From the IMG/VR virus record IMGVR_UViG_3300020180_000003, positions 1 to 64,000 of that record: a stretch of DNA of 64,000 nucleotides, one strand, 5' to 3'. The notes under the pieces were generated by a model. The model was not told where the DNA came from and ran no database searches. It saw only the letters and a list, made by a program, of their open reading frames with translations. Positions 3,307 to 56,271 of the stretch are shown piece after piece. The stretch is from a virus. Each line of letters begins with the position of its first letter. The stretch's first letter is position 1. The position numbers and the translations under genes were made by a program.

Positions 3307-3320
3307 GAATAATTGTTTTG

Positions 3321-3356: not shown

Positions 3357-3369
3357 TACGGGAAAACAC

Positions 3370-4581
3370 ATGAGCGAACTAGACGTAACCGGCTTAACTT
3401 TCACAATTCCAGCGCGTATTTTGCGTCCATCCGAACAACGGCAGATGGATTTGCTGGCAATCATCAAAGAGCGCCACGCGTTAGATCCGGCAATCCTTGA
3501 GGAAAAAACGCCATTCTTTTGGGATGCCGAAATCTCATCGGACCTGATCGACGCCTACTCATCTCACATGGCGCTGAGTACCCTGTCCAATTTCCGTGAT
3601 GATGCCCGGGCCGGTGTATCTTTTCTGCCGGGGCACAAACATCACGAACTGCCATTTGGCCGGTCGTTTGAGGCCACGCTGCAAGACACACAAGAGCCGC
3701 CACGCACACGCGTTGTGGCTAGCTTCTACACAATCCCTGGCTTGCGCCTCAACGACATCACGACAGACGACCTGATTGGCGGCTTGCGTAGTGGCATCCT
3801 CAAAGACACCTCTGTTGGTTTTCACGGCGGTGAGCAAACTTGTGATTTGTGCAACCGCAGCATCTGGGATTGGGATTGTGTACACGTCCCGGGCCTGCGC
3901 TACGAGGTCAAAGAGGGCAACCTTGTCAGCGCAAAACTTGCAACATACGCCGTGCATAATGCGCGCCTTTCCGAGGTTAGTAGCGTATTCGACGGCGCTA
4001 CACCTAGAGCAGAAGTAATCAAAGCAGAGCGCGAGGCAAGCGAAGGGCGCATGAAGCCCGACGCTGTACGCATGATCGAAGAACGCTATCGGGTAAAACT
4101 ACCGACTAGGCGTCAGTTTGCTGTAAGCCAGCAGAAAGACAAAGCAATGGATTTTGAACAAGTAATTAACCAAATTCGCGAGGTGCGCGGGCTTGACGCT
4201 TCAGCGGACATTATCACGGCGCTACAAAGCGAAGGTGCCGAACTTGGCCGGCTCCGTGCGATTGAGCCAAAATTAGCCGATGCCAGTGCTAAACTCATCG
4301 AGCTTGAACCGCTGGCCGCTGATGGGCGTGCCTATCGTGCTGATCTTGTCGCCGCGGCACTTGAGGAAGGTGTACGCGCCCACGGTGACAAGTTCGACCA
4401 AGCCACCTATGAGACGGTGCTGCGCAGTTCACCAATCGCCATCATTAAACGGATGCGCGATGACTGGATGGCGACCGGCGATCAACGTCTCTCTGGCGGC
4501 CGTCAAAGCACCGATGAAGGCGAACCGGCAGGTAAGCCCAAGCAGCGCACAACCGTGCCGCAGAAAGCGTACGCGGTCTAA
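3370..4581 (+). CDS. Probable prohead protease with fused scaffold region
   Basis: A 403-residue protein placed between the minor head gene and the capsid genes. The N-terminal half contains a His-rich GHKHHELPFG (about residue 88) and a Ser in GILKDTSVGFHGG (about 142-154), compatible with the His/Ser centre of phage prohead proteases. It also has an unusual CDLCNRS pair of Cys. The C-terminal third is Ala/Glu/Leu-rich and coiled-coil-like, as in scaffolds. An internal ATG at 4147 could give a separate scaffold, as in lambda C/Nu3, but its ribosome site is weak. Function is inferred from position and layout. Confidence 0.62.
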   Translation: MSELDVTGLTFTIPARILRPSEQRQMDLLAIIKERHALDPAILEEKTPFFWDAEISSDLIDAYSSHMALSTLSNFRDDARAGVSFLPGHKHHELPFGRSFEATLQDTQEPPRTRVVASFYTIPGLRLNDITTDDLIGGLRSGILKDTSVGFHGGEQTCDLCNRSIWDWDCVHVPGLRYEVKEGNLVSAKLATYAVHNARLSEVSSVFDGATPRAEVIKAEREASEGRMKPDAVRMIEERYRVKLPTRRQFAVSQQKDKAMDFEQVINQIREVRGLDASADIITALQSEGAELGRLRAIEPKLADASAKLIELEPLAADGRAYRADLVAAALEEGVRAHGDKFDQATYETVLRSSPIAIIKRMRDDWMATGDQRLSGGRQSTDEGEPAGKPKQRTTVPQKAYAV

Positions 4582-4583
4582 TC

Positions 4584-5024: not shown

Positions 5025-5036
5025 GAGGATTTTACA

Positions 5037-5462: not shown

Positions 5463-5473
5463 AGGAGTGATTT

Positions 5474-6718: not shown

Positions 6719-6730
6719 GGAGGCTTTCTG

Positions 6731-7981: not shown

Positions 7982-7987
7982 AAAATT

Positions 7988-10598: not shown

Positions 10599-13500
10599 AT
10601 GGCTAGAGAACTGATATACCGCGTATCTATAAACACATCCGACGCCAAACGGCAGGCGGCGAATATTCGCGCCACGTTTGAATCAGAGTTGCGTAAGATC
10701 ACGGTTGGCAAACTTGACACATCCTCACTGAAAGCTGCCACCAACCAAGCCAAGCTATACGGCGATGAACTGAAAAAAGCGGCACAGGTGAAAGCTGGCG
10801 AGATAGACACATCGCACTTGCAGCGGGCCACAGGCGAAGCGCAGCGACTGCGTGCGGAGATGGAACGAGCGGGTGCCGCGGCTAGTGATATCAAGGTGGC
10901 ACCCATCAGTAACGCAGGCGGCGCGGGCATTGGCGGCGCGGGCATTGGCGGCGGTGCGTTGGCTGGCCTGGGCGGTGCGTTGGCTGGTGGCCTTGCGGTG
11001 GGCGGGGCAGTTACAGCACTCAAGACGCTAGGCGGTGCCATTGATGGCGTGGCGCGGCGTGGCGCGATTCTTACGCAATTGAACGATGTGCTTGATAGCT
11101 ATACCAAGAGCATTGGAAGTAACTCCGAAGCATTTATATCAGCAGCGCGCAAGGCGTCCGCCGGTACGATTTCAAATTTCGATCTGATCCTTAACGCAAA
11201 CCGGGCGATCCAATTCGAGGTCGCTCAAACGGCTGAACAATATGCGCAACTAATCGAGCTATCCACGGCGCTGGGGCGTGCACAGGGGATCAGCGACACG
11301 CAGGCTCTGGAATTCCTTACCACTGGGTTAGCGCGTGAATCGAGATTGATTCTTGATAACCTTGGGCTGATTATCAATGTGTCCAAGGCGAACGCGGATT
11401 ACGCTGACTCAATCGGGAAAACGTCTGACCAACTTACTACAGCGGAACGTAAGCAAGCGCTGTTGGCAGAGGCGGTCCGGCAGGGCGCTGTAGCGATTGA
11501 GGCAAATCGGAATGCGTTTGATAGTGCAGCAACGCAGTACGAACGGTTTGATGCAAACGCCCAAAATCTAAAAGACTCCCTTGGCAAATTGGCTGCACGT
11601 ATTTTGTCTATGCCTTTCGCCAAGGCGGCTGGTGCGCTCGAGGAGTATAACGAAAAGTATTTCCAGGGCGGTGTATCGGACGATACGCTTTTGCGACGCC
11701 GAGCCGAACTGCAAGCCGAAATAAACAAGATCGAGGCAGATGGGGGAAAATCGAATGTTCTAGGCATACAATTTGACGATGAAATGATTGGACGTGCCGA
11801 GACATACCGGGATACCATTGCTGAAATAGATATCCTGATCAGAAATATGAAATCGGCTGATCCGAATCCCATCACCGGGCCTAGCTTGGAAGATTTTCAA
11901 CAGGGGTTTTCAACTAAGAAGCTAACCTTTAGCGCGTCTGAAAACGCGGCCACCAATATTATTGCGCAGGAGAGCGAACAGATAGAGGCGGCACTAATTG
12001 CACGCGCCAAGCAAGCAGTCGCCAACCTGGGTGCGGAAGGCATAGCGTCTGTCACGGCGCAAATGCAATCTGTGCGAACACAGATGAATGCCGCCATTGA
12101 CGAAATGATCGCACGCGGACTCAGCGACCCGCAGCAGATATCTTTCGAGAGTACGGCACTAACTGAATCGCTGCTTGCCACATTCGATCAGCTTGAAGCC
12201 GCCGCCAGCATTGCCCCCACGCTTAATCTAGGCAATCTTGTTGCCGAATTTGACGCACTCGGTGCAGCGTCTGCCAACTTCGGCGCTGGCTTTGTGGATT
12301 TCCTGCCAGCAGTTGCGGCGGCGCGTGACGAGCTTTTTGAGCTTGGCAACGAGCTACTGACGACCGGCACACTCACCGACGAACAGGCGGCACGCCTTGA
12401 ATATCTCTCGGCTGTGGCCTACAGCGTTAGCGATGGTACGTCGCATCTCGGGCAAGTCGTCAATGAACTTGGCAGCGCTTTCCTAGAAAGCAACGATCAC
12501 GCGGCGGCGCTTGTAGGCAAGATGTTTGAGGTAGAAGCATCGTTTCGTGCTGGGCTTATTTCGGCTGATATTTATGCCGGTGTCACGGCGGCGCTAGGTG
12601 GCGATCTGCTGCTTCTGGCAAGTAACGCCGGTGTCGCTACGTCCGCGATTTGGGCATTGACACAGGCGCAATCTAATATGGCAAGCGCTGGCGCAATGCA
12701 GATTGGCGCGGGTATTTCCGGTGGCATTCAGACACAGCAGGCTGCTAGCGCACGCGAGAATAACCGCAGAGAGTTAGATCGTGTTGCCAAAGCGGAAGCC
12801 GCCCAAGCGAAGCAGATCGCACGCCACCAGGAAAGCGCTGCGCGGTCAGCTGCGAGGACGACCGAGGGCTCGGCGCGGAAGGCAGGCAAGGAGCTAGAAA
12901 AGGGCGCAAAGAAAGCCTCGCAGGAACTAATCAGCGCGCTCAAGGGCGTTGAAGGCTTATTCAGCGCTAGCCAAGTCACCGAAGACGACATGAAGCTGGG
13001 CAGTGACTACACCGATAAGGCCGACGAATATCTACGCCGGTTACGGGACGAAGTAATCAACGGCGTCGATTGGGCGGATGTGTCTATTGAGGAGGCTAAG
13101 GCCGCAATCGAGGGCATCGGCGTCAACGCTGCTCAAACAAAAGAGGGCATCCTTGCCCAGTTTGAGCAACTGTGGAATAACCAAGCGCTGTTTTCCGACG
13201 CCGCAAACATTGACAAATTTATCAATGATGAAGCGGTGCAACAGGCGTTGGATTTGCAGGAGAAGTCGGCGCAAGGCGAAAAGAACATTCTTGCTCATTT
13301 CGGCGTGGTTGTCGATGAGGCCGTCGATGCAGTGATAGCAGGCGCAAGCGGCGGTGGTGGTGGTGGCGGCGTTAGCTTTGCACCATTACAGCTAGATCCG
13401 ATTGAACCGGCAAAGCTGATTGACGTAGATCTGCTTACTGATGGCGTGCAGGACGGACTAACCGACTACGTGGGCCGTGCGGCGTCCAGTATACGAAAAG

Positions 13501-15062
13501 TTTTCACGGACGCCAAAGAGCCTGTGCTTGATACCAATCGATTATTTGGTGGCATTGGTGGGAAGATCGGCAGCACGCTGCAAGAGCGAAAGGCGCAAGC
13601 AGAAGTCGTGATCACGGCCTCGCCTGCTGCTGCACAGATCGGCGCATATCTGGCAAAAGAGGACAGCGCAGCCGGAATCAACCTCACGCCAACATTCGAC
13701 GCCGTGGCTGCACAGGCTGAACTCGATAAGCTAGAACTTACCCTAGCGATAAAGCCGACCTTGGCTGTCGATTCGGGTGAGGCACTGGCGCGAGAACTAG
13801 GCGACCAACTATCGAAACAGTCCGCCACGCTGGTGTCGCACGGCACGAACATTGGCGGCAATCTCAAGACGGGCCTGATTGCAGCGTTAGGGCTGGGCAA
13901 AGACGACGAAGCTGTAAAAGTCGATATTGCTGGATTGATTGGCGGCAACCTACAGGCGCAACAAGCGCGCTTTAGTGGGCAAGGCGAAACTATCGGCGGG
14001 CTACTGAAAGCGGGCATCGCAAAAGCCTTTGCCAACACAGACACGGCAGGCTTGCAGGACGAACTCGACAAGCTGGATTTGAAAGCAGAAATCAAGGCCA
14101 GCCTCAGTGCGGAAAATCTATTGACGATTAACGGCTTGATCACTGCGCTGACGCCTACGATTAAAGCAAAGGTAAGCCTCAGTGCGGAAAATCTATTGAC
14201 GATTAACGGCATCGTCACTGCGTTGACGCCTACGATTAAAGCAAAAATCAAATTGGATGCCGAAAACATAATTGGCACCAACGGTTTGATTGCAGGGTTG
14301 ACGCCGGGGATCGTTCCGTCCATTACCGCGTTTACGATAGCCGAGGGCGTGCGCCCTGCTGATGTCGGCGTGTTGGGGGTGCTAAACCAGTTCGCTATTG
14401 ATGAAACGGCATTACGCAGTGCGGAACTGACTGTACCCGTGAAAATCAAACTAGAGGAACCGAAAGCCGAACCAGGCGTCGATCCGGCGAATGCGCCGAA
14501 TGCAATTACACCACTCATTACAGGCATCAACACGCAGATCCGCGCTAGTACGGAAGGCCTCAAGCGCGAGGGTGCTACGGTGGCACAAATCATTATCGCT
14601 GGCATCATTGCTCACTGGCAGGCTGGAGCCGGTGCGGAAGGTGACGGGGTTGGCGCGATTGCGGCGGCGCTGATGACGAATGTAGCCACGCAGTTCACCA
14701 CCTCGCAGAATATGTTTTATGCGCTGGGTTTCATTCCGGCGGGCAGTGTAGAAAGCGGCTTCAAAGCATACGTGTACACCGGCATGGATAGCGGTATTCT
14801 GGATAGCATCACCAATGGTATTCGCACCAATGCGGAGAATTATCAGCAGCGCGGCGCAACGATTGGCAACTACGTGCAGCGCGGCTTGAACGATTCATTC
14901 AGCGGCGAAGTTGGCTTGTCGTTGGCCGTGGCCGCGGGTACCGCATGGGGCAGCGCTTTCCAGAGAGGCGTGTTAAACCAACTCGCCGCGGGCAGTGGCC
15001 TAGTGACGGCAATCACTGATAAGGTACTGGAAGGCATCGCTACGGAAATGGAGCAGCCCTGA
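10599..15062 (+). CDS. Tail tape measure protein
   Basis: A 1487-residue protein, the longest of the tail core, beginning at the base after the previous stop. It is mostly helical and Ala-rich, with a Gly-rich hydrophobic segment (about residues 105-145), a Lys/Ala/Glu coiled-coil region (about 715-780), and late hydrophobic repeats. At 14101 and 14176 a 75-bp unit (25 residues, NLLTINGLITALTP type) is duplicated almost perfectly, with a degenerate third copy. Tape measures set tail length and often form a channel into the cell. The stop overlaps the next start (TGATG). Confidence 0.93.
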   Translation: MARELIYRVSINTSDAKRQAANIRATFESELRKITVGKLDTSSLKAATNQAKLYGDELKKAAQVKAGEIDTSHLQRATGEAQRLRAEMERAGAAASDIKVAPISNAGGAGIGGAGIGGGALAGLGGALAGGLAVGGAVTALKTLGGAIDGVARRGAILTQLNDVLDSYTKSIGSNSEAFISAARKASAGTISNFDLILNANRAIQFEVAQTAEQYAQLIELSTALGRAQGISDTQALEFLTTGLARESRLILDNLGLIINVSKANADYADSIGKTSDQLTTAERKQALLAEAVRQGAVAIEANRNAFDSAATQYERFDANAQNLKDSLGKLAARILSMPFAKAAGALEEYNEKYFQGGVSDDTLLRRRAELQAEINKIEADGGKSNVLGIQFDDEMIGRAETYRDTIAEIDILIRNMKSADPNPITGPSLEDFQQGFSTKKLTFSASENAATNIIAQESEQIEAALIARAKQAVANLGAEGIASVTAQMQSVRTQMNAAIDEMIARGLSDPQQISFESTALTESLLATFDQLEAAASIAPTLNLGNLVAEFDALGAASANFGAGFVDFLPAVAAARDELFELGNELLTTGTLTDEQAARLEYLSAVAYSVSDGTSHLGQVVNELGSAFLESNDHAAALVGKMFEVEASFRAGLISADIYAGVTAALGGDLLLLASNAGVATSAIWALTQAQSNMASAGAMQIGAGISGGIQTQQAASARENNRRELDRVAKAEAAQAKQIARHQESAARSAARTTEGSARKAGKELEKGAKKASQELISALKGVEGLFSASQVTEDDMKLGSDYTDKADEYLRRLRDEVINGVDWADVSIEEAKAAIEGIGVNAAQTKEGILAQFEQLWNNQALFSDAANIDKFINDEAVQQALDLQEKSAQGEKNILAHFGVVVDEAVDAVIAGASGGGGGGGVSFAPLQLDPIEPAKLIDVDLLTDGVQDGLTDYVGRAASSIRKVFTDAKEPVLDTNRLFGGIGGKIGSTLQERKAQAEVVITASPAAAQIGAYLAKEDSAAGINLTPTFDAVAAQAELDKLELTLAIKPTLAVDSGEALARELGDQLSKQSATLVSHGTNIGGNLKTGLIAALGLGKDDEAVKVDIAGLIGGNLQAQQARFSGQGETIGGLLKAGIAKAFANTDTAGLQDELDKLDLKAEIKASLSAENLLTINGLITALTPTIKAKVSLSAENLLTINGIVTALTPTIKAKIKLDAENIIGTNGLIAGLTPGIVPSITAFTIAEGVRPADVGVLGVLNQFAIDETALRSAELTVPVKIKLEEPKAEPGVDPANAPNAITPLITGINTQIRASTEGLKREGATVAQIIIAGIIAHWQAGAGAEGDGVGAIAAALMTNVATQFTTSQNMFYALGFIPAGSVESGFKAYVYTGMDSGILDSITNGIRTNAENYQQRGATIGNYVQRGLNDSFSGEVGLSLAVAAGTAWGSAFQRGVLNQLAAGSGLVTAITDKVLEGIATEMEQP
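14101..14325 (+). repeat. 75-bp tandem repeats in tape measure gene
   Basis: Bases 14101-14175 and 14176-14250 are near-identical, with a diverged third unit after them. Each codes for 25 residues around NGLITALTP. Gain or loss of a unit would change tape length without breaking the frame. Confidence 0.85.
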
Positions 15063-15403
15063 TGCACTTAGGTGGAACGACAATACCAGATAGTATTGGC
15101 AAGAGCGGGCGCTATCTCATTAATAGAGAAGTTCTGCGCTACAACGGTGATGGTGAAGCGGTGACGGCCAACTATTCCATATTAGTATGGACATTCCCGC
15201 TGATGACCATCGTTGATTTTACTTGGATTGCTACCACGCTCCTCAGTGGCAATTACAGCGTGAAATACACGAGCGCCAGCCTAAAAAGTGATCTAGGCGC
15301 CGACACCAGCTACACCAACGCCGTCGCCTACCGGCCTACCTATGGCGTTGCCACTGGTGGCTGGCTGGCTGATGTCACATGGGAGATCAAGCGCATCCGC
15401 TGA
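15062..15403 (+). CDS. Distal tail protein, small
   Basis: A 113-residue beta-rich protein between the tape measure and the large tail-tip gene, with one-base overlaps at both ends (TGATG). By position it is a distal tail or baseplate component. I recognise no motif. Its tight coupling to both neighbours shows it is translated. Confidence 0.68.
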   Translation: MHLGGTTIPDSIGKSGRYLINREVLRYNGDGEAVTANYSILVWTFPLMTIVDFTWIATTLLSGNYSVKYTSASLKSDLGADTSYTNAVAYRPTYGVATGGWLADVTWEIKRIR

Positions 15404-18069
15404 TGGCTACACTTACCGAAGCTAATTTTCGCATGTGGATTGGCCCACATCATACACATATCAACTGGTCAACGCTCAATCTTGGCGCGTCTTTCGTGCC
15501 TACCACCACGACCACCACCGGCCAAATTAGTGGCGCAACATCACTGGTGTTGGCGTCTGCCACCGGCGTCACCGTACCAGGTGGCGCATGGGTGGGGCCA
15601 AACGGCAGTGGGCAGGGTTGGGAATATGAGCAGATCTTGTCTGGCGCGGGCAATACGAAAACAGTCGTTCGAGAATCAATTACCGACCGCGAGCATAACG
15701 GCATCCATACGAACGGTGCCGCCGTGCATCAATGGTATCCCGGCACCACGAATGACGGCGTGCTGAGCGCTACTGACGAATGTGACGACACGGTGACGAC
15801 CATCACCTATCGCGCTACTGTGTCCGGTGTGCGTGCCCCGCAGCACGTCTTACGCAACGGGCATGTCGTTGTAATTACCACATCCACTGATGGCGGCGCG
15901 TACACAATCGCGCTACTTGGCTTTGTGGACTCACCGACGATCACCGACGACATGTACAACAACGCCGAATGGACGCTGAACATTATTTCAGCGGCAGGGC
16001 TGGCGGCAGAAATAGAAGCGAATGGTGTGCGGGTTGGTGATGCTGATTTGGCTGATGCCGGTAACGCGTCATCCTCGCAGGAACTCGTGCTAGCCTTTGA
16101 CGAGCGCGCCAGTGGCGACTACACAGCCGCTGCGCCAGATTTTAGCGCCGCCAGTGCTGTCGATAATGACCTATCGACACTCTGGATTGCTGAGCACTAC
16201 ACTGGCACAGACATTTGGAGCACCACAGCGAACAGCGATCCGGAAAATGGCTACCCGCTGCGCTTCTCACAAATCTACATCAATCCACCAGCTAGCGCGC
16301 CACCTGGAGCGAAGTTTATTGAGTTGGCAGTCGTGTCATCGTTAAATGTCGTTGGCTATAACATTTATAGTGCCAACGGGGCGCTACCTTTGGCCGCGTG
16401 GTATTTCAAGGGGCCGGGCGATCTAGAGCCGCGTGCGCGGATTATTCTAGCGGAGGATGCGGCCGTATTCAGTCAGATGAATCCACTAGCCGAGACAGCA
16501 GCCATCTACGAGAATAAAATATTCTTCGCAGGCATCCAATCGAGTGGCGGTGAATTTTGGTTGCGCTTTGGGCCAACAAATTCGTGGCAAGCGCGCGTGC
16601 GCTGGGGCGATGGCAACGGGCTTGTCGATCATGAGGACTCGCCGTCTAGATCATGGACAGGTTCTACGCTGACTGTACCAGCGTTAGGCCAGACGATGCG
16701 TTATCTATTCAACCACACAACAGGCACCGCATCAGCCTACTGGCAGACAGGCATGGTGCGTCACGCTGGCTATGATGTGGATGACGACGATCCGATTTGG
16801 ATACTAAACACGCTGCCGGGATTGGGCTTGACGCTAGCGCAGGACATTTCATCTGCTCTGACGGGTGCCGGGAAAATCTACATCAACGGCCCCGATGATA
16901 AATACAGCACGGACGGATTGCCGCCATCTGGCAATGTGATGATTGGTGATGAAATTATTTTCTATGGAGCGAAAACCACCGAATATCTCACCACCCTCAC
17001 GCGTGCTAATTCGAGTACAACAGCAGCCGCGCACAAGGCCAAAGATGAGGTATTCGTCCTTGACGGCAGCACACCGACTGACGCCTATCTGATTAAAGAG
17101 ATCGGGTGGGAGCGTTCCAACGGCACGATCTACCCAAAGAATTTCGTTGTACGTGCTTCAAATCTGATCAACACACCACGCACGCCGGACCAGGACAATT
17201 ACACAGACGATTATCATCTTGGCTATAGCGGAACTGACAACACTGCCGCAAGCTGGTCAGTACCGCTCTATGGGCAGCGCGTCAAGCATGTATTGATTGA
17301 GATCCTCAGCATGACGACGAACCCAGCGCGCCCGCGGCTGAATGAGATCAACGCGATTGTCGATCCGGCATTGCACAATCCAGATTTGTGGTTAGCGTCC
17401 GGTACGACTGCCGGCGCATTGATTCAGAAGGTTCTAGAAATGGCAGGAATTCCCTCCGGTGCCATCTCGCACAGTGGCACGCCCGCGATTGCAAATACCG
17501 TCACCGCCGATGAGAACACATGGACCGTCGTTACAGATCTGGCTGAGTATAGCGGGTGTCGCATTACGGTGACACGCGATAGCAAATTCGTCATCACCGC
17601 CGATACCTTCTGGACGGGCACGCCGTCCATTCTCACAACCTGGAATCGCACCAGCGCGGTCAGCGTAATGCAATCATTCAGCAAAGGCACGCCGGTATCG
17701 CAGGTGATATTACCGTGGAAAACGCCTAGCGGTGAAGCTGATGGCAAAATTTACTATCCAGAAATGCCGGGGCGCGGTACCAAGCTAGAACAGCCGGAAA
17801 CACTATACGCGTCCGAAGCAGCGGCCACGAGTGCCGCGCGGCGTCTCTATTTTATGCGTCTCTACCCGTTTGAGTCAATGGTAACGGCCTCCGGCAGCGT
17901 ACCAGACAAGCGCGCTGGCGAGGCACATCAGCTTGTCTGGCAGTTTGCCGATGATATGCAGTCGCTAGATAGGCTGTGTGTTTGTATGTCGGCAGAACAC
18001 AGACTAGAAAAAGGCAGTTGGAGCAGCACTTTTAGATTGCGCCAGTACGGGCACGAAAGCAACTTATGA
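15403..18069 (+). CDS. Large tail-tip / baseplate hub protein
   Basis: An 888-residue protein downstream of the tape measure. The ATG at 15403 overlaps the previous stop and is preferred over an in-frame ATG at 15379. The N-terminal third is beta-rich. A central segment (about residues 300-350: FIELAVVSSLNVVGYNIYS, later ILAEDAAVF) looks like a lamin-tail-type fold. The C-terminal part reads like late hub domains. Probably it forms the tail tip that carries the fibres. The lamin-tail idea is a guess from pattern. Confidence 0.7.
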   Translation: MATLTEANFRMWIGPHHTHINWSTLNLGASFVPTTTTTTGQISGATSLVLASATGVTVPGGAWVGPNGSGQGWEYEQILSGAGNTKTVVRESITDREHNGIHTNGAAVHQWYPGTTNDGVLSATDECDDTVTTITYRATVSGVRAPQHVLRNGHVVVITTSTDGGAYTIALLGFVDSPTITDDMYNNAEWTLNIISAAGLAAEIEANGVRVGDADLADAGNASSSQELVLAFDERASGDYTAAAPDFSAASAVDNDLSTLWIAEHYTGTDIWSTTANSDPENGYPLRFSQIYINPPASAPPGAKFIELAVVSSLNVVGYNIYSANGALPLAAWYFKGPGDLEPRARIILAEDAAVFSQMNPLAETAAIYENKIFFAGIQSSGGEFWLRFGPTNSWQARVRWGDGNGLVDHEDSPSRSWTGSTLTVPALGQTMRYLFNHTTGTASAYWQTGMVRHAGYDVDDDDPIWILNTLPGLGLTLAQDISSALTGAGKIYINGPDDKYSTDGLPPSGNVMIGDEIIFYGAKTTEYLTTLTRANSSTTAAAHKAKDEVFVLDGSTPTDAYLIKEIGWERSNGTIYPKNFVVRASNLINTPRTPDQDNYTDDYHLGYSGTDNTAASWSVPLYGQRVKHVLIEILSMTTNPARPRLNEINAIVDPALHNPDLWLASGTTAGALIQKVLEMAGIPSGAISHSGTPAIANTVTADENTWTVVTDLAEYSGCRITVTRDSKFVITADTFWTGTPSILTTWNRTSAVSVMQSFSKGTPVSQVILPWKTPSGEADGKIYYPEMPGRGTKLEQPETLYASEAAATSAARRLYFMRLYPFESMVTASGSVPDKRAGEAHQLVWQFADDMQSLDRLCVCMSAEHRLEKGSWSSTFRLRQYGHESNL

Positions 18070-21000
18070 CCTCAGCGACATTCAAGCGCAACGCGAAACG
18101 AATCAAAGACGCCATCGCTGCCAAGACTGAGCCGAAGCAGACCACATCCATAGCGGGTGCAGTCGGTGGAACAAAACTGTTCATCGGCGGGCAAATATTC
18201 CCAGGCTCTATCACAGGCACGCAGGAAGTTGTCAACGCAGGCCGTCCAGCGGCGGCGTCCTATGTGGCAAAAAATGGTGGCGGTGGCGGCAGTGTTTCCG
18301 TAAGTAGCGGTGGCGGAGCAGCATCTGTTTTGCCAACCACCGTGTATCTGCCGCGTGACGGCTCATTGTCCATGACTGGCAGTCTGGACATGGGCGAAAA
18401 TAGTATTATCAATGTTCAACGCGTAGACGGGCGCGACTTGCAGGCTGATGGCGTTATCCTGGACGGCATGAAAAACGCCGATGTGTTGGTGCTGACCGCC
18501 AACGCCGATTACACGAATGAGCGCGTGTTGACTTTCAGCGCAGCTTTTACGACCGTGGATTCAGGCGCAAATAACGCATACACTGTTAGCATTGTGACGC
18601 CGCCAACATTGTCAGTTTCCTCAACCAACAACGGCACCACACGGTCCCATGCGATTACTACGTCAAGTAACCCGGGGGCGGCGGCTAGTATCCTGGCATC
18701 CAGTGCCGCGGGCATGTTGACGCTACCAACATTCACGGCCAGCACGAAAGTGCGCACGCCACTACTGGATACGGCGTCAGGCAATATGACGATACAGCCA
18801 GCCGGTAATTTGATTATCCGTGCTGGCGTCGGTGTTAGTCCGATTGCGCTTATTCCGTTTGAGCGTGATGCCGTATCCGAAACACGCATTGGATCGGATG
18901 ACTATGCTAGCCAAACGACAGGCTGGGCAATCGAGCATTACGGCGGGGGTGACTTCCGCTATCTCTACACTGACGAAATGCACGCGAAGGTATTCATTGC
19001 CGATTTGGAGCAAGCGCTAGCCGGTGGGCAGATCATTGCCAAGTCGGTGACGTTGCTGTTCCTTGTGTTTACGGCTCCGGCAGCGGGTGGCACTACAACA
19101 TTGACGGTTCGCGATTTGCCTAGCGCCACGGGGATGGCCGTCTTTCAAAATGGCGATATGATTCGCCTGCGCAACTTTAGCCGTGCTGGTGGTAGCCTGG
19201 ACATTTCCGATTGTTGGGGTATTGCCACGCTCGATACTAGCTATGGGACAGGCGGTTTCGACTCTACCACCAAATCGCAACGATACACCTTTGTGCGATC
19301 TAGCGGTAGCTATGCGGGCCACATGACGACGGGGACTACAGTGCAGCCGGAAAGTATTGTACTGGACTACGGCATCAGTGGCAATGGCTACTATGAAGTC
19401 AATGCGATTGATGGTTACTACGCTGCCAACTCACCTTACGCGCAAATCGTAACCTGGACGGTTCATCCCGCAGCTACGGCACCAGGAACCGGGCTAAAGA
19501 TAAAGGCGCGTCTTGGCAACCTAGTAGGCATTACCGATGTTAACCTAAACCCTACGGGCTACGGGTTGTATTCTGAGAATACCTATTTAAAGGGCGACTT
19601 TCTCACCGGCGATGGTGTGATTCGCATGTACAACGCGACCGGCATCAATATTCTACAAGACGTGTGGAGCAGTTGGGACAACAAGCGCGCTGTGCAATGG
19701 TGGCCTGATATTACGAGCGTGTCCGGCGATCCATCGTTGAGTATCTACACCGGCAAGGTTGTCGGCGGCTTTACAGCCAATCAGAATTTCAGTTATATCG
19801 ACGCTAATCCAACGGGCAATGTTTTGGCTGGGCTATCACTCTCGGCGTTCGGACAAGGTACGGCATCGGATGCCATTGTCTACATTGAAGGCGGGAGTCA
19901 GTCGCTTGGCACGACACCGACAATTACACTGACGGCGACGACTATCGAAGCGGTTGGCACACTCGCCATCACCGGCAACATCACCGTCACGGGCACTGTT
20001 GACGGCGTGGACATATCCGCATTTAAGGCAACTTACGATAGTCACACCCATGACAGCACGTATCTAAAATTGATTGGTGGCACGCTGACCGGCACCTTGA
20101 CCAGTCGTACGGTGGCACCATCAGCGAACAATACCTATGATATTGGTACAACCGGCAACTACTTTAATTATGCCTATATCCGTAATCTCGTAGTCGATAC
20201 GGTGGTCGGCACGCCTACCTATAGCCATACCCATGCAGCCGGTGACATTACCAGTGGCACGCTGGCATCTGCAAGAATCCCCGACCTCTACGTTTTGACG
20301 GCGGGCGACACAATGAGCGGCGCTCTGGTCATCGATGCAGACACCGGCACCACATCCAATTATGTGCGCTGGCTGACACAGACATCAACTGGCAAAGCCT
20401 GGGACATGATCGGGCGCGCTCACGACTACGCCACTAGCGCACAGCAGAACGACCTACTACTGACCTACTACGATGGCGCAACCATTTACGTTGCGCTGCA
20501 ATTCGACAGCGGTACGCGGGTGGCTGATTTCCTCAATACGCCAACGGTTGCAGGCACGGCGGTCAGTCTGTCCACGCATAATCACGACGCGGCTTATGTG
20601 CCGGTAGCGCGCACTGTCACTGCTGGAGCGGGATTGACTGGCGGCGGCTCTCTCTCTGCTAATATCACCATCAGCCATAACGACACAAGCACTCAGGCAT
20701 CCGTCACAAACACCACTTCGCTTATTCGGGATGTCACGCTCGATACATACGGACACGTCACCGCGCTTGTCTCCGCGACTGTCCTATCAATCGCTCCCGA
20801 ATTGCATCTTGGTGCTAGTTCCACAGCCGGAACATTGGACTGGAATGACGTGTCCAACACAAAGCCCAATAGCGGAAGCACCCTTCTGAGGGGGACTGCG
20901 GCTAACGCGATGGGCGGATTGGGTTATTATCACCCTATCAACTTTGAGTATGCCACAAAGAACGGCACGGGCAACGTCACGCAATGGGCAGTGCCCTACA

Positions 21001-25797: not shown

Positions 25798-26049
25798 CTA
25801 CGGCTGAAATTTAGCCGTGATGCCATTCTCGCTGGCGATTGACTCGGCGGCGTTGCGAGCGCCCGCCTGAGACCAGTAGGAGGTGGTTTCCTCCTGGTTG
25901 TCTCCGTCTTGGTTGGTAAACCACACAATCACCATGTAAACGGGGCAGTCCTCGCCGTTCTTGGGCTGGGTGCCGCGTTGTCCGGTGTAGTACACTTCTG
26001 CTTCTACTTCTACTTCTACTTCTACTTCTACTTCTACTTCGTTACGCAT
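25798..26049 (-). CDS. Small protein with Glu-Val repeat N terminus
   Basis: An 83-residue protein, last gene of the leftward operon. It starts MRN and then alternates Glu and Val for about 14 residues, coded by a perfect hexanucleotide tract. The rest (YMVIVWFTNQDGDNQEE, then an Ala/Ser helix) looks like a small folded domain. Function unknown. The repeat could change length by slippage. Confidence 0.65.
   Translation of the reverse strand: MRNEVEVEVEVEVEVEAEVYYTGQRGTQPKNGEDCPVYMVIVWFTNQDGDNQEETTSYWSQAGARNAAESIASENGITAKFQP
25996..26040. repeat. TTCTAC hexanucleotide microsatellite, about 6 units
   Basis: Six perfect TTCTAC units (26002-26037) plus partial flanking units lie inside the coding region of the preceding small protein and stay in frame. 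Confidence 0.92.
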
Positions 26050-26963: not shown

Positions 26964-27006
26964 TTTTTGTTTTCTCTGTTGATTGATTGTGGCCCAGTGG
27001 CCCAGT

Positions 27007-27057
27007 TGGTTGATTGTTGGTGTATGCCCCGGCATTTCACGCCGGGGCTTGGGACTA
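27007..27057 (-). repeat. Repeated intergenic hairpin module, copy 1
   Basis: GCCCCGGC (27026-27033) and GCCGGGGC (27041-27048) pair perfectly around ATTTCAC, flanked by a conserved GGTTGATTGTTGGTGTAT and TTGGGACTA. The module lies between the stop of the gene at 27055-27309 and the start at 26963. The same module recurs at 27342 and 27643. Confidence 0.85.
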
Positions 27058-27309
27058 CGCTGCCTGCTTCAAATACGCTTTGACGTAATCAAAAACAGAT
27101 AGCTCGCAGCCGTCGTAGTCAACCCATGTGGCCCCGCTTTCTGCGAACAGATCGCTGATGGCGTAGGCGGCAATCACAACTGAACCATAGGCAGCGACTG
27201 CTTCGGCAACCGACATGTCGCCGGAACCGGCCCACATATCCTCACCAATGCTGGCTGGTGTGTCCGTTCGAGTATCAACTTCTGTCTGACCAAATTCGTT
27301 TGTGCGCAT
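27055..27309 (-). CDS. Small acidic protein, unknown
   Basis: An 84-residue acidic protein beginning MRTNEFGQTEVDTRTD. The start at 27309 follows a GGAGAAAC ribosome site. The middle is Ala-rich, and the end has DYDGCELSVFDYVKAYL. A similar DYDGK(V/L)S phrase occurs in the next gene upstream, so the two may be distant paralogues. Confidence 0.62.
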   Translation of the reverse strand: MRTNEFGQTEVDTRTDTPASIGEDMWAGSGDMSVAEAVAAYGSVVIAAYAISDLFAESGATWVDYDGCELSVFDYVKAYLKQAA

Positions 27310-27341
27310 GATGTTTCTCCTGTTGATTGTTGGTTGAATGT

Positions 27342-27392
27342 TGGTTGATTGTTGGTGTATGCCCCGGCATTTCACGCCGGGGCTTGGGACTA
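27342..27392 (-). repeat. Repeated intergenic hairpin module, copy 2
   Basis: The same sequence as copy 1: stem arms 27361-27368 and 27376-27383, loop ATTTCAC, with identical flanks. It sits between the genes starting at 27309 and ending at 27394. Confidence 0.85.
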
Positions 27393-27393
27393 G

Positions 27394-27627: not shown

Positions 27628-27642
27628 TTCATTCTCCTGTTG

Positions 27643-27698
27643 ATTGTTGGTTGATTGTTGGTGTATGCCCCGACATTTCACGCCGGGGCTTGGGACTA
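27643..27698 (-). repeat. Repeated intergenic hairpin module, copy 3
   Basis: Stem arms 27667-27674 and 27682-27689 with the same loop and flanks as copies 1 and 2; one arm base differs (GAC for GGC), giving a single mismatch. Confidence 0.82.
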
Positions 27699-27953
27699 GC
27701 GAAGTGATTCTGCCACATAGGTAGTGACGGCGTGGCGTAAGAGGTCGATGGTGAACCCTTTCACCCCGTCCCTCGTTCGCTGGATGTTTTTTGTCCAGCG
27801 AACATTGTCTGGATTCACTTGCTGAAAAACAGCAGCGCATTCGTCAATCGTCAGATGCTTACACACCTGCACAATAGCGCCGGCCATTTTCGTTCCCATT
27901 TGTTCGGCCTGGATTTTTTTTGCATTGTTGGCTAGTTTTTCGATTGTAATCAT
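27696..27953 (-). CDS. Small protein, unknown, first gene of the hairpin-spaced operon
   Basis: An 85-residue protein with ATG at 27953 and a CAGGAGAATC ribosome site. It is helical, with a KHLTIDECAAVFQQVNPDN segment. No family is recognised. It is the first gene after the promoter at 28010-28038. Confidence 0.62.
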   Translation of the reverse strand: MITIEKLANNAKKIQAEQMGTKMAGAIVQVCKHLTIDECAAVFQQVNPDNVRWTKNIQRTRDGVKGFTIDLLRHAVTTYVAESLR

Positions 27954-33620: not shown

Positions 33621-33770
33621 CTAGATACTGAGTCGAACGCTGCCAGACTTAACATCGGGTAGGCTGCGCAGTCGTGACATTTCTGCCTTAGCATCGGCCT
33701 CGTTCACGAGTTTTGAATGCTTCGTGCCCCGCATTGATTCCCACACGATTTTGATTTTTCTATTCGCCAT
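33621..33770 (-). CDS. Small basic protein (49 aa)
   Basis: An ATG at 33770 is preceded by a very strong GGGGGGAAATC ribosome site and gives a 49-residue product ending at TAG 33621-33623. It reads MANRKIKIVWESMRGTKHS and then a short Ala/Glu helix. It starts inside the end of the upstream gene (stop at 33760). No family is recognised. Confidence 0.6.
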   Translation of the reverse strand: MANRKIKIVWESMRGTKHSKLVNEADAKAEMSRLRSLPDVKSGSVRLSI

Positions 33771-34014
33771 GATTTCCCCCCCGACTATAGCGCTGCTTGA
33801 TATGGCTAGCTATCCCTAGCAGGCGCAACGATTCAGTATATTCATTGCCGGTGAACTTGGTTGCCAGTGCCCCGGCATTCAGCGACGTAATGTCTCCATC
33901 TTTGCCGACAATTGCACGTAACTTGTGGCCGACTCTAGTCGATAGCCGCACAGCGCAATGCGCCTGTATGCGCCGGTACACTTTTTGGCACTGCGTAGGC
34001 TCCGGTCGGTTCAT
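33760..34014 (-). CDS. Small basic protein, unknown
   Basis: An 84-residue basic protein overlapping both neighbours (ATGA with the gene to its right). It contains GHKLRAIVGKDGDITSLNAGALATKF, in alpha/beta pattern. No family is recognised; perhaps nucleic-acid binding from its charge. Confidence 0.6.
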   Translation of the reverse strand: MNRPEPTQCQKVYRRIQAHCAVRLSTRVGHKLRAIVGKDGDITSLNAGALATKFTGNEYTESLRLLGIASHIKQRYSRGGNHGE

Positions 34015-34274
34015 AACTGTTTTGCCTTATCCGCAGTCAGTGCCGCCATCTGTGCATGTAACCGCATTAGCTCACCCTCTAGGCTTTTCAGTCGCCCCCC
34101 TAGTCCTTGTACCATCAGGCGCAATGACTCAACGTCCAGGCCCGTTACATCCTGCCCGGCGTCAATCGAGCGTAGCAGATTAGACAGGTAGTCGCCCCTT
34201 TTGCGCTCACCTCTGGCCAACTTGTTGAGTAACTCCCCGATCCCATCGTCTACCGACAGGTTTAGACGTTCCCC
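34011..34274 (-). pseudogene. Ribbon-helix-helix type gene lacking a start codon at the CRISPR junction
   Basis: The open frame begins right after an in-frame TAG at 34275-34277, which lies inside the first CRISPR repeat. It encodes ERLNLSVDDGIGELL, NKLARGERKRGDYLSNLLRS and then a leucine-rich coiled coil. The start region looks like the N-terminal strand of an RHH protein, normally preceded by a Met within a few residues. No ATG, GTG or TTG is present before a TTG at 34220, which would cut off the DNA-binding strand. Either initiation uses CTG at 34259 or the gene lost its 5' end when the array arrived. Confidence 0.6.
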
Positions 34275-34483
34275 CTAACCCCTGCGCGTGTGGGGCGACC
34301 GTTTGCCCCGGCCAATGACAATTCCTGTGCAGCCCCTAACCCCTGCGCGTGTGGGGCGACCCTCGATACGTTGTTCGTGGTTCTGCAACGTTGCCCCTAA
34401 CCCCTGCGCGTGTGGGGCGACCTGTTTCCAGGTCAACGAGTTTGGCAGACGCATCCCCTAACCCCTGCGCGTGTGGGGCGACC
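34272..34483. CRISPR. Mini CRISPR array: 4 identical 29-bp repeats, 3 spacers of 32 bp
   Basis: The repeats are at 34272-34300, 34333-34361, 34394-34422 and 34455-34483. All four are identical. Each starts CCCCTAACCCC and ends GGGGCGACC, with a CCCC/GGGG stem around a GCGC core. Spacers are 34301-34332, 34362-34393 and 34423-34454, all 32 bases and unrelated to one another. A 29/32 geometry and a stem in the repeat middle are typical of type I-E. No cas gene is visible in the window. It probably borrows host Cas proteins. Confidence 0.93.
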
Positions 34484-34610
34484 CCTATTACGGCAGTCAC
34501 CCGCAAGGTTATCCACGCTTACAGGGTTCCTAGTTCATCGGCGCACTATCGTGCTGTCCTCCCTAGGCCATTTTAACGACCACGGTGTAGGTACTCCCGC
34601 AGTCGGCGCA
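34484..34610. other. Gap between CRISPR array and tnpB: possible TnpB right end / guide RNA
   Basis: After the last repeat there is no further repeat. TnpB genes usually carry the 3' end of their guide (omega) RNA just downstream of the gene. Here the minus-strand sequence after the tnpB stop runs about 80 bases to GAACTAGGAACCC (34524-34536), which looks like an IS605-type right end. The next 16-20 bases toward the array would be the guide. This is a pattern guess. Confidence 0.4.
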
Positions 34611-35783
34611 TTAGGCTGCGCTTGCCAATCTAACGGCCTCATTGCGAATATTGATTGCAGCGTTGCCGTCTCGTTCGTGTTCAGCCCCACAATCAGGACA
34701 AGCCCAGGTTCGTATTGACAATGGCAGTTCCTTGACCTTTTCACCACAATTAGAACAGGTCTTGCTGCTGGCGAACCAGCGATCTACAGCGATGACCTTG
34801 CCGCCAACAGAAATAGACTTGTATTGCAACTGTAGGCGCACTTGATACATGCCTGCATCGCTGACGGCTTTGGCTAATCGGCGATTCTTGACCATGCCTT
34901 TGATATTCAGGTCTTCCACTCCAATCAATCCATATTCGCCAACGATTTCCGTTGTCATCTTATGGGCATTATCCCTGCGAACGTCAGCAATGCTTGCATG
35001 TAGCTTGGCAATTTCCAGTTTTCGCTTTTGGTAGTTTCTCCCCTTCACGTCTGCATCACGCATTCGCTGAAACGACCGTTGCAGTTTTGCGAGCTTGCGT
35101 TGATGTTGTTTTAGCGCCTTGGGGTTGCGATAAACCACCCCGTCGCTAGTGACGGCCCGATACCTGATTCCCATATCAATCCCGACCGTCTTCGATATGT
35201 CGGCGGTCTGTTCAAGGTCGGCGACTTCGGACTGTACGGCAAGATACCAGTACCCGCCCGTGTAGCTGACGCGTCCGCCCAATACTTTCCCTTCAAAGCG
35301 CAAAGGTTCGGCCATATTAACGGCCCCGTCTGGGCAGCGTGAAATCATGACGCCGTGACCGTCAAACTTCATTCCGCCATTGTTAGCAAGTCCAAAGGAC
35401 GGCGTTACCTTGTCGCGTGACTTGAAGCGCGGCCAACCAAACGGCTTCCCGTCCTTGCGCGGTTTCCAGCCTACTGGTGCCTTCAAGGTGCCTTTTTTCC
35501 TTAGATCAAAGTATCGGCTGATCGAAGATTGTAAATCTTGAAAGGCGTACTGATTGGCGTAGGTTTGTACTTCTGCCACAAAAGGTGCAAATTCTTCCTG
35601 ATTGCGCCGACGATTAAACTCCTTCTTTAATTCTAGAATTTTGGGCTTCTCGCCACGTGTTAACCCGTTGTTGTATTCAGCCAACGCCCAGTTCCATGTA
35701 AAGCGGGCGATTCCTGCGCACTGCCAAAAGTAGCGAGCCTGTTCGTCAGTTGGGTTCAATCGTATTCTGTGCGCCCGAATCAT
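34611..35783 (-). CDS. tnpB: TnpB RNA-guided nuclease (IS200/IS605 family), apparently intact
   Basis: A 390-residue protein. It starts with MIRAHRIRLNPTDEQARYF, typical of OrfB N termini. The RuvC-like site is complete: Asp in VGIDMGIRY (about 203), Glu in IGVEDLNIKGM (about 289), Asp in ERDGNAAINI (about 372). A zinc ribbon CSNCG and CPDCG lies between. No tnpA transposase is next to it, as in IS1341-type solo elements. It sits between the CRISPR array and an RHH gene and cuts the leftward early region in two. Confidence 0.93.
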   Translation of the reverse strand: MIRAHRIRLNPTDEQARYFWQCAGIARFTWNWALAEYNNGLTRGEKPKILELKKEFNRRRNQEEFAPFVAEVQTYANQYAFQDLQSSISRYFDLRKKGTLKAPVGWKPRKDGKPFGWPRFKSRDKVTPSFGLANNGGMKFDGHGVMISRCPDGAVNMAEPLRFEGKVLGGRVSYTGGYWYLAVQSEVADLEQTADISKTVGIDMGIRYRAVTSDGVVYRNPKALKQHQRKLAKLQRSFQRMRDADVKGRNYQKRKLEIAKLHASIADVRRDNAHKMTTEIVGEYGLIGVEDLNIKGMVKNRRLAKAVSDAGMYQVRLQLQYKSISVGGKVIAVDRWFASSKTCSNCGEKVKELPLSIRTWACPDCGAEHERDGNAAINIRNEAVRLASAA

Positions 35784-35844: not shown

Positions 35845-36063
35845 CTATATTGCCGTGTATTCCGGTGTTGCGCTTGTTTCTAGCGCCTCTATGCGCTGTT
35901 CATGATTATCTAGTCGTTTCGCAATTGAGTCGTGGTGTCGATAATCACGAACAAACATTTCCACCAACGCGGCGCGTCCTTTGGTGCCTTCCACTTTACA
36001 AATCTTATCCATTGCATCTATCGTCTGTTGAGATAATCGCAATGACAAAGGTTTATTTGCCAC
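35845..36063 (-). CDS. Ribbon-helix-helix (CopG-type) regulator
   Basis: A 72-residue protein. The start GTG at 36063 has a perfect GGAGGCGAT ribosome site. The N-terminal NKPLSLRLSQQTIDAMDKI and the following helix fit a ribbon-helix-helix, followed by a short coiled coil (IAKRLDNHEQRIEALE). A promoter lies 40 bases upstream. It likely controls its own transcript. Confidence 0.72.
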   Translation of the reverse strand: MANKPLSLRLSQQTIDAMDKICKVEGTKGRAALVEMFVRDYRHHDSIAKRLDNHEQRIEALETSATPEYTAI

Positions 36064-36102
36064 ATCGCCTCCGTAGTCCGTTCGTATCACCATTTGGGCT
36101 AC

Positions 36103-36132
36103 ATTCTAACACGACTCCATCCCCCGTGTCAA
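36103..36132 (-). promoter_or_regulatory. Leftward sigma70-like promoter
   Basis: On the minus strand, TTGACA (36127-36132), 18 bases, TAGAAT (36103-36108), just before the RHH gene and tnpB. Confidence 0.6.
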
Positions 36133-41747: not shown

Positions 41748-43019
41748 TCACCCCCGAATCACCCCTACGAAACCGAACGATCTAAATTCATCCGAAAAGT
41801 CACTTTTCTTTGTGCCAAAATATAGAATTGCTTGCCCTTGCAGAGGTGCGCCTGTTTCACCATCTGGTCGCCAGAATCTCACTCGGCTTTTTGGGAAACA
41901 AACGCAAGTTGCCATGCGCGCCATGCGCTGAAACCAGGCTGTCTCAGTAGCGTTATTGACTAACACGATAGCCTCTGTCACGTCGCCAGCCTGATAGTGA
42001 TTACACAGCTTTTTAGAAAATCGCCCAACGAGATCGGAAGAATAGGGCGGGTTCATCCACACCTTGCCTGTCCATTCTTGCGTTAGCCCATCGTCATCTA
42101 CCGTGTAAAATTCGCCAGCCTGTACAATTGTGTTGGCAATCTCTGACGTTGCTGGATCTAAGTCAATTCTCCCCAACACGCGGCGCGCAGATTCGACATA
42201 TTCCCTCGGCGTGTACCATTCATTATTGCCGGAGTTATTCGCGACGTGTGGCTTGGATGACTCGTGTGCCCTGACATCTGGTGATATGTTGCAATAAGGA
42301 CAATAGGGAAGATCCGCTATCCATAGCTTACTGCAAACTCCGCACTGCTTCGTATCACCACGCTGCTTGTAATTGCCGGATACCCCCACTATTACCGGAG
42401 AGAACGCCCAGGGATCATCGTTATATTCGCCGCCATCATAGTTGCCGCCATCCTCGGCTAATGCTTCGGCTTCCTGATCGTATGTATCGCCGCTGTCGTG
42501 CGTGCCGTTGGTGCGCGGCGCATTGCGTTCTGGATTGTCGAATTGTGGTTCGACGGTGGTGTCTTCAACTGGCTGTATCTGCTTGAGGTTGGCTTCGTAC
42601 TCACGAGCGGACTCAAGTAGATCACGGCTACTTAGGTTGTGATCAATGGCGTAGCTAAGTAAAGAGCGTTGGGTATCTTCATCAAATTTTGCAACATGCC
42701 AATGGTGTGTCCATGATAGTTTCTCTGTGCGCACAGAGAAATGTACGTTGCGAGAGGTGTATGAATAATTCATCAAATTTTGCAACGTATTGCCCGTGAC
42801 CTCAATCGCTTGGGTATACTTGTCGCCCCAGCGATTTTCCCCCTCGTTTATCCAATCGCCAAGCCACCAGTTTTTTGCACTGTCAATGTACCTGAATCTT
42901 TCTCCAACATCTGTCCACTGATCGTAAGTCATGTTGGCTGGGGGTTGCCACGATACAGCGTCAATGACGCCGTAATTAGAAAGTAATTCGTCTAGATTCG
43001 ATTTAGCTAGGTGCTTCAC
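41748..43019 (-). CDS. Dam-like N6-adenine DNA methyltransferase with fused DNA-binding N terminus
   Basis: A 423-residue protein in three parts. Residues about 1-150 look like a plasmid-type DNA-binding module (SAKNWWLGDWINEGENRWGDKY, then a helical region). A CGVCSKLW...CPYCN zinc ribbon is at about 225-242. The last 160 residues are a phage Dam-type methylase: NEWYTPREYVESARRVLG, DLDPATSEIAN, KVWMNPPYSS (about 321-330). The catalytic NPPY is intact. The enzyme probably protects phage DNA; the fused front may choose the sites. Confidence 0.85.
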   Translation of the reverse strand: MKHLAKSNLDELLSNYGVIDAVSWQPPANMTYDQWTDVGERFRYIDSAKNWWLGDWINEGENRWGDKYTQAIEVTGNTLQNLMNYSYTSRNVHFSVRTEKLSWTHHWHVAKFDEDTQRSLLSYAIDHNLSSRDLLESAREYEANLKQIQPVEDTTVEPQFDNPERNAPRTNGTHDSGDTYDQEAEALAEDGGNYDGGEYNDDPWAFSPVIVGVSGNYKQRGDTKQCGVCSKLWIADLPYCPYCNISPDVRAHESSKPHVANNSGNNEWYTPREYVESARRVLGRIDLDPATSEIANTIVQAGEFYTVDDDGLTQEWTGKVWMNPPYSSDLVGRFSKKLCNHYQAGDVTEAIVLVNNATETAWFQRMARMATCVCFPKSRVRFWRPDGETGAPLQGQAILYFGTKKSDFSDEFRSFGFVGVIRG

Positions 43020-54387: not shown

Positions 54388-56271
54388 ATGTCAATTTGGA
54401 TTTCAAAAGAAGAGATTGCCGCGTTGCCCACAAGCGGCACTGCATGGAATAGTGTTCTAAGTGCAGCGAATAGCAGCTGGGGCAGCGCGGACCTGTCCGA
54501 CAACAACAGTTCGCACGATGTCGCCACACTAGCCGGGGCACTGGTGGCGGTGCGCAATGCAGACAATGCCATGCGCGAGAAAACGATTGCAGGCCTCAAG
54601 TCTGCAATGGCGTCGAAGTTTGCGCGGGCGCTTGAACTGAGCCGTGGGCTGCAAACGTATATCATAGTTGCCGACATCATCGGCTACCGTGATGCAGCTT
54701 TTCTGACGTGGGTAGAGAAAGCTACCACGGCCACCGTGCAAGGCCATTCTGGTGGCGACGGCGTTATCGGCACAGCCGAGCAATCCGCCAACAACTGGGG
54801 CGGTCATGCCCGGGCATCACTAGCCGCCGCCGCTGTATTCCTGAACCGTACCGATTGGAAGGCATTGATCATCACCGCTCACCGTGCCTTCATCGGGGCA
54901 AGCGCACCGGGAAACAAGATGCGCTATGGCAGTACCGGCTGGCACGCTGGCACACCACAGTCGGGTATCAACCGGCCTGATGCAAAAAGAGGTGCAGTCA
55001 GTCTGTCCGGCGTGCTTGCCGAAGACTGGCGGCGTGGTGCTGATTTCAAGTGGCCCCCGTCTGCTAGCGGCTATATGTGGGAGGGTATGCAGGGGCTGGT
55101 TGTGACCGCGGTCATCCTACACCGTGCTGGCTGGGTAGCGTTCAATGAGTCTGACAATGCGATTGTGCGCGCTATGGATGTGCTCTATGGTACCGGCGCG
55201 GCGGCTGGCAATAGTCCAGTATTCAAAAACCCCGCAGCCAGTGATGACACATGGATCCCCTGGATAGTCAACGCTGTTGCTGGGACAAGTTACCCGACGA
55301 CCGCCGCTTCGTCTGGTAAAAATATGGGATACACCGACTGGACGCACGCCAAAGCGGGCACAGCGCCACCAGTGGAACCACCCGTGGACCCGCCACCCGT
55401 CGATCCGCCACCGACTGGTACATCGCCAATGGATTTTCTGGATTCATCAAGCTGGTATCTCACGCTCCCGACAAAAATCAAGGCTACGCCTGACACGGTG
55501 AAAATACCAGAGTTGCGAACCTACGCTAGCGAATGGTTTCGTTTGAATAGTGCCAAGGACGGCGTTGTTTTCAAAGCGCCCACAGACGGGGCAACGACAA
55601 CGAACTCAAAGAACCCACGTTCTGAATTGCGCGAGATGTCACCCGATGGCAAGACGCAAGCCGCCTGGTCATCGACCACGGGCACGCATTCGATGGATAT
55701 TGAGCAGATGGTCAGTGCCGTGCCGATTGGCAGCAAGCCCGTCGTGGTGGTGGGGCAAATTCACGACGAAGACGACGATGTAACCGTATTCCGATTCGAG
55801 GGCAATACCAGCGGCGACCGCAATGTCGGGGAACTCTGGATCACCGATGGCAACACATCGCATGGTCATCTCGTAGATGACAACCTGGCGTTAGGCACCA
55901 AGTTCAGCGTAGGGTTCCAGGTGGCTGATGGCAAAATAACCTACACCTACAACGGCCAGACGGTGGATTATACACAATCCAAGAAACTCAGCGGCTGTTA
56001 TTTCAAGGCTGGCTCCTACAACCAAGCCGGTGGCATTGTTACTAAGCTGCCCGATGGTAAAGCCGACTATGCCGAGGTCACGATCTACGCGCTTCAGGTA
56101 TGCCATGATGGAAAATGCACCGGACGCAAGCCAGGCGTTATCGTGCCACCTGTTGACCCACCCGTAGACCCGCCCATCACATACAGCCTGACGGTTACGG
56201 GCGCCGCGACATCTATCGCTGCGTTAAAGGCTTTCATCAAGGCTGACACGTCTTCGCTGAAAGTCAGCTAG
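54388..56271 (+). CDS. Two-domain alginate-lyase-like depolymerase
   Basis: A 627-residue protein. Residues about 1-320 look like a toroid-type alginate lyase (SRGLQTYIIVADIIGYRD, ANNWGGHARASLAAAAVFL, GYMWEGMQGLVVTA). A Pro-rich linker (PPVDPPPVDPP) joins a PL7-like lyase, about 348-560, with the three family motifs RSELRE (about 411), QIH (about 457) and YFKAGSYNQ (about 538). A short beta-rich tail ends the protein. It should cut acidic polysaccharide in capsule or biofilm. There is no signal peptide. Released at lysis or part of the virion. Confidence 0.82.
   Translation: MSIWISKEEIAALPTSGTAWNSVLSAANSSWGSADLSDNNSSHDVATLAGALVAVRNADNAMREKTIAGLKSAMASKFARALELSRGLQTYIIVADIIGYRDAAFLTWVEKATTATVQGHSGGDGVIGTAEQSANNWGGHARASLAAAAVFLNRTDWKALIITAHRAFIGASAPGNKMRYGSTGWHAGTPQSGINRPDAKRGAVSLSGVLAEDWRRGADFKWPPSASGYMWEGMQGLVVTAVILHRAGWVAFNESDNAIVRAMDVLYGTGAAAGNSPVFKNPAASDDTWIPWIVNAVAGTSYPTTAASSGKNMGYTDWTHAKAGTAPPVEPPVDPPPVDPPPTGTSPMDFLDSSSWYLTLPTKIKATPDTVKIPELRTYASEWFRLNSAKDGVVFKAPTDGATTTNSKNPRSELREMSPDGKTQAAWSSTTGTHSMDIEQMVSAVPIGSKPVVVVGQIHDEDDDVTVFRFEGNTSGDRNVGELWITDGNTSHGHLVDDNLALGTKFSVGFQVADGKITYTYNGQTVDYTQSKKLSGCYFKAGSYNQAGGIVTKLPDGKADYAEVTIYALQVCHDGKCTGRKPGVIVPPVDPPVDPPITYSLTVTGAATSIAALKAFIKADTSSLKVS

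Follow-up and report, generated by a model that had tools for sequence, protein, structure and literature searches.

A small CRISPR array with the geometry of type I-E systems lies within the closed genome of a phage (IMG/VR record IMGVR_UViG_3300020180_000003), of which we analyzed positions 1 to 64,000, hereafter the window. We consider it probable that this is a virus-borne mini-array without cas genes, which uses the Cascade complex of the host against related phages. Two of its three spacers resemble genes of the carrier phage itself, whereas neither a host array with the same repeat nor a perfect protospacer was found in the collections searched.

The array consists of four copies of a 29-nt repeat (CCCCTAACCCCTGCGCGTGTGGGGCGACC on the plus strand), 100% identical to one another, which follow an exact 61-nt period and enclose three 32-nt spacers (Table 1). 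Four identical 29-mers with this periodicity cannot be the product of chance. Conservation ends sharply at the repeat edges, the spacers are mutually unrelated (6/32, 11/32, and 10/32 identical positions when compared in register), and no fifth or solitary copy of the repeat occurs in the window, the best other site matching at 19/29 positions. CRISPR arrays in general consist of identical direct repeats of ~23-50 nt with unique spacers of nearly constant length between them, and type I-E arrays of 29-nt repeats and 32-nt spacers with a 61-nt period; both sets of features are present here, as an initial annotation of the window had recognized. We apply the I-E label to the geometry and do not regard the element as a proven I-E array, because the repeat was not found in a locus with I-E cas genes in a search sample that was limited. 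A search of Rfam gave no match.

Table 1. Array components and associated features (positions in the window)
Feature	Position	Strand	Remarks
Mini CRISPR array	34272..34483	-	4 repeats x 29 nt and 3 spacers x 32 nt; crRNA strand most likely minus
Repeat copies	34272-34300, 34333-34361, 34394-34422, 34455-34483		plus-strand letters CCCCTAACCCCTGCGCGTGTGGGGCGACC
Spacer 1	34301..34332	-	32 nt; without match in any search
Spacer 2	34362..34393	-	32 nt; resembles own RHH-like gene
Spacer 3	34423..34454	-	32 nt; resembles own head-protease gene
Gap between tnpB stop and array	34484..34610	-	127 nt, 57% G+C
tnpB (390 aa)	34611..35783	-	RuvC D/E/D and zinc-finger cysteines present
Small RHH-like protein gene	35845..36093	-	RHH_1 E=0.007, below the Pfam cut-off
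Promoter-like site TTGACA-18-TAGAAT	36103..36132	-	11/12 consensus positions; before the RHH-like gene
Small gene	34011-34220	-	downstream of array; no family
Small gene	33760-34014	-	downstream of array; overlaps neighbour; no family
Head maturation protease/scaffold-like gene	3370..4581	+	spacer-3-like site at 4280-4311

The record is 64,013 bases long and ends in a 127-base direct terminal repeat. Because the terminase ORF (416 aa) reads continuously across the join once one repeat copy is removed, the phage genome is complete and closed at 63,886 bases. The array is located inside this genome, together with terminase, portal, and capsid genes, and is thereby virus-borne. It is surrounded by replication-side genes in a compact minus-strand run, in the order RHH-like gene, tnpB, array, two small genes, and HNH nuclease. 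In line with the initial annotation, which had seen no cas gene in the window, no cas1, Cas2, cas3, or Cascade families were detected among the proteins scanned with Pfam and PADLOC, which include part of the small ORFs; the tnpB gene, by contrast, goes unmentioned in that annotation. Searches of IMG/VR with the FtsK-like, DnaB, and RHH-like proteins found no relatives and so gave no second phage for a comparison of the array region. Elsewhere in the genome, three copies of a 61-nt element (26998-27058, 27333-27393, and 27639-27699; 87-100% alike, spaced 335 and 306 nt) lie between small minus-strand genes and contain a strong hairpin (GCCCCGGCATTTCACGCCGGGGC), suggestive of a repeated regulatory or terminator-like element. 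A run of 6-nt tandem units occupies positions 26000-26040, and the genome encodes two DNA methyltransferases (41748-43019 and 61604-62839), of Dam-like and of N6/N4 type.

The resemblance of spacers 2 and 3 to genes of the carrier phage is apparent at the codon level. In translation, spacer 3 (ASAKLVDLET) corresponds in frame to ASAKLIELEP in the head-protease gene, with 22/32 identical nucleotides and a serine codon switch (AGT/TCT), and agrees at 23/32 nt with the close relatives L122 and L123. Spacer 2 (TLQNHEQRIE) corresponds to RLDNHEQRIE in the RHH-like gene next to tnpB; only 19/32 nt are identical, but L, N, H, E, Q, R, I, and E are kept, largely by synonymous changes. Most differences in the two matches are synonymous. 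The peptide score of spacer 2 was reached by none of 400 shuffles, and its score of 77, obtained in an all-ORF test, by 16 of 1146 real I-E spacers; the score level of spacer 3 is attained by 1.7% of these 1146. Two of three spacers at the combined score correspond to p ~9e-4 against the real I-E spacers and 1e-4 against shuffles, with both figures based on a longest-ORF gene set that omitted the RHH-like gene. The two peptides are of a coiled-coil-like type, for which convergence can produce similarity, and relatives differ at the spacer-3 site, the 52%-identical L125 having ARAKVTELEP. Collectively, these matches are suggestive of an origin of spacers 2 and 3 from diverged relatives of the carrier phage, with an RHH-like gene homologue in such a relative as the likely source of spacer 2. 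A peptide match of spacer 1 (CHWPGQ in L140) was also considered but disappeared once the comparison was restricted to open frames of at least 60 codons.

None of the spacers has a perfect target in the carrier genome, the best site in the rest of the window matching at 22/32 positions, which agrees with the earlier observation of no full match. Searches of IMG/VR with codon-degenerate versions of spacers 3 and 2 and with a 20-mer of spacer 1 returned chance matches and no protospacer, and the same was true of the whole array compared with phage and plasmid records. Spacer 1 is without a match in the carrier genome and in the IMG/VR, phage, and plasmid searches. The initial annotation had proposed to compare the spacers with viral contigs and to look for a PAM beside the protospacers; since no perfect protospacer was found in IMG/VR, phages, or plasmids, a PAM could not be read.

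The search for a host gave a similar picture. Chloroflexota, put forward initially as the host phylum, is possible but unsupported: the repeat, for which a search of I-E arrays of this phylum had been proposed, is absent at up to 3 mismatches from all 400 Chloroflexota genomes searched, and the portal protein has no relative at E<=1e-20 in 251 such genomes. Across four phyla, the portal protein gave just two weak matches, both in Bacillota, and DNA of window positions 1-20000 matched 151 Chloroflexota genomes at chance level, with no host spacer recovered. The repeat, searched as a 20-mer, had no match in other IMG/VR contigs either. A degenerate paired-repeat scan of genome contigs yielded generic I-E arrays, the nearest repeats among the matches listed sharing 23/29 positions; the best of these belongs to a Dehalococcoidia I-E locus (L060) with Cse2, Cas7e, Cas5, and Cas1. 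The phage array has in common with it the 29-nt repeat and the 61-nt period, whereas the Dehalococcoidia array is long, accompanied by cas genes, and has a stronger repeat hairpin. An array on another Dehalococcoidia contig (L104, ~2450-3085) shares the unusual 17-nt repeat core with its weak stem, but this candidate was rejected, its genome having no Cas7e match; it is apparently an orphan chromosomal array. As a further lead only, an I-E spacer of a Synergistales host (L084) resembles window positions 63078-63109, adjoining the terminase, at 24/32 nt (VEVLFGKVPE versus VEVAFGKVPE), and may be directed against a distantly related phage. The phage also encodes a 627-aa protein (54388-56271) whose C-terminal part is an alginate lyase domain (Pfam E 2.8e-43); it is likely a depolymerase and gives a hint that the host has an alginate-like capsule or biofilm.

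The Dehalococcoidia locus also provides an orientation. Its array lies downstream of the cas genes, whose strand carries the repeat as GGTTGCCCCGCACGCGCGGGGGTAGGCC; because the like-oriented phage repeat (GGTCGCCCCACACGCGCAGGGGTTAGGGG, 23/29 identical) is read from the minus strand, the minus strand is most likely the crRNA strand, and transcription of the array would proceed leftwards, in the direction of the gene run. The promoter-like site upstream of the RHH-like gene is a possible promoter for the whole run from this gene through tnpB to the array, although promoter-like sites in the region are not more numerous than expected by chance. At the expected leader position, between tnpB and the array, no typical or A+T-rich leader was recognized, and therefore the phage probably acquired the array by recombining with a host array rather than by adaptation in place. 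The gap may hold the guide-RNA (omega) region of tnpB; the motif GATGAACTAGGAA at 34539 (minus strand) is a lead only. Repeats of type I-E arrays fold into a strong hairpin as the recognition site of Cas6e. The phage repeat hairpin has a CCCC/GGGG stem of 4 pairs with a predicted energy of -6.1 kcal/mol, versus -13 for the Dehalococcoidia repeat; either the host Cas6e accepts this weak hairpin or the array is losing function.

From these features, we infer how the array would be expressed and processed, which Cas proteins it would use, and what it would target, following the model proposed for the viruses SPV1 and SPV2 (PMC6858448) and for phage mini-arrays (PMC11656645, PMC7099407). Minus-strand transcription of the array, as part of the early gene run, would yield an RNA that is cut by the Cas6e of the host; the resulting crRNAs, loaded into host Cascade, would guide it and Cas3 to relatives of the phage that co-infect the cell or already reside in it. 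Spacer 2 would target the RHH-like gene of these relatives and spacer 3 their head-protease gene, the carrier being spared by at least 10 mismatches in its own copies. Thus, with guides supplied by the phage and Cas6e, Cascade, and Cas3 by the host, the infected cell would become resistant to related phages. The exact geometry, the closed genome, the two codon-level look-alikes, and the agreement with the published pattern of mini-arrays argue for this model; the failure to find a host array with the repeat or a perfect protospacer, the weak hairpin, the matchless spacer 1, the coiled-coil-like character of the peptides, and the variable spacer-3 site count against it. The initial proposal that the array employs host Cas proteins against rivals is accordingly upheld in part: the cas-less array of I-E geometry stands, and spacers resembling own genes at the codon level support use against rivals, as expected if they target diverged relatives, but neither a host with the repeat nor a perfect protospacer has come to light.

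Mini-arrays without cas genes, with spacers against related viruses and often against genes near the array, have been described previously (PMC6858448, PMC11656645, PMC7099407). In SPV1 and SPV2 (Medvedeva et al. 2019), they are cas-less, the viruses' own copies are mismatched, and one target lies near the array (PMC6858448). The phage array is likewise a short intergenic viral array without cas genes, with spacers resembling genes of related viruses, mismatched own copies, and one putative target, the RHH-like gene, nearby. Unlike the SPV arrays, which have 1-2 spacers, host-like leaders and repeats, and perfect protospacers (PMC6858448), it has 3 spacers and no recognizable leader, and neither a host repeat nor a perfect protospacer was found for it. 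The mini-arrays of phages and prophages reported by Faure et al. (2019), as far as they are summarized in later papers (PMC6858448, PMC7099407, PMC11656645), are similarly cas-less and lack a host-like leader; their spacers point at related phages and at genes in the vicinity of the array, as those of the present array may do. They usually carry 1-2 spacers and host-identical repeats, whereas the present array has 3 spacers and a repeat for which no host counterpart was found.

Another explanation, unlikely in our view, is that a fragment of a host I-E array with ordinary anti-phage spacers was captured by recombination and has no present function. The lack of a recognizable leader, the weak hairpin, and the failure to find a perfect target would fit such a relic, and host anti-phage spacers would likewise match relatives of this phage. 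Nevertheless, all four repeats are still identical, whereas decay should introduce substitutions, especially into the terminal repeat, and the array sits inside a compact gene run. We regard it as improbable, too, that the array acts as an RNA anti-CRISPR, its repeat transcripts occupying Cas6e and Cas7e and blunting host immunity, with incidental spacers. Some phages carry single-repeat Racrs that inhibit I-F and I-E systems (PMC10651486), and a mini-array could sequester Cas proteins through repeat mimicry. The phage array shares with Racrs a CRISPR repeat in a phage genome without cas genes, but these are solitary repeats without spacers (PMC10651486), whereas here four identical repeats alternate with three full spacers of regular length, two of which look phage-derived, a property that a decoy does not need. 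Moreover, no solitary repeat is present elsewhere in the genome.

The tnpB gene encodes an RNA-guided nuclease related to Cas12. Its product is catalytically intact, with the RuvC residues D, E, and D and both CxxC pairs present, and the gene is co-oriented with the array, its stop lying 127 nt away. With no tnpA noted beside it and 61 nt to the next gene, this stand-alone tnpB has possibly been domesticated by the phage. It is very unlikely that TnpB uses the array as a phage-borne type V-U-like unit, the nuclease being guided by array RNAs to related phages, either by itself or in addition to host Cascade; this is the one reading that would be new, and it draws on adjacency and orientation. 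PADLOC Cas12u4 and Cas12f models match the protein, but they match TnpB in general, and the repeat shows the length, period, and CCCC...GGGG layout of type I-E. TnpB is ~40% identical to Chloroflexota TnpBs and equally to those of Pseudomonadota plasmids; relatives at this level are widespread as IS607/IS605 proteins, and none of the 3 such regions inspected has an annotated CRISPR feature. Finally, although other intergenic repeats exist in the genome, a non-CRISPR iteron or regulatory repeat cluster, which the initial annotation had named among the refuting cases, is hardly conceivable given the constant 29/32 geometry, unrelated spacers, and sharp edges.

Virus-borne mini-arrays without cas genes are already an established kind, of which the three spacers, the tnpB neighbour, and the unassigned host are variations. 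With this array, the viruses known for such elements gain a closed phage genome from an uncultivated lineage. Its number of spacers is unusually high, and two of them appear to be directed against homologues of genes of the carrier, the mark of conflict among related viruses. Should a host with a matching repeat be found, the array would name both the host of this phage and its rivals.
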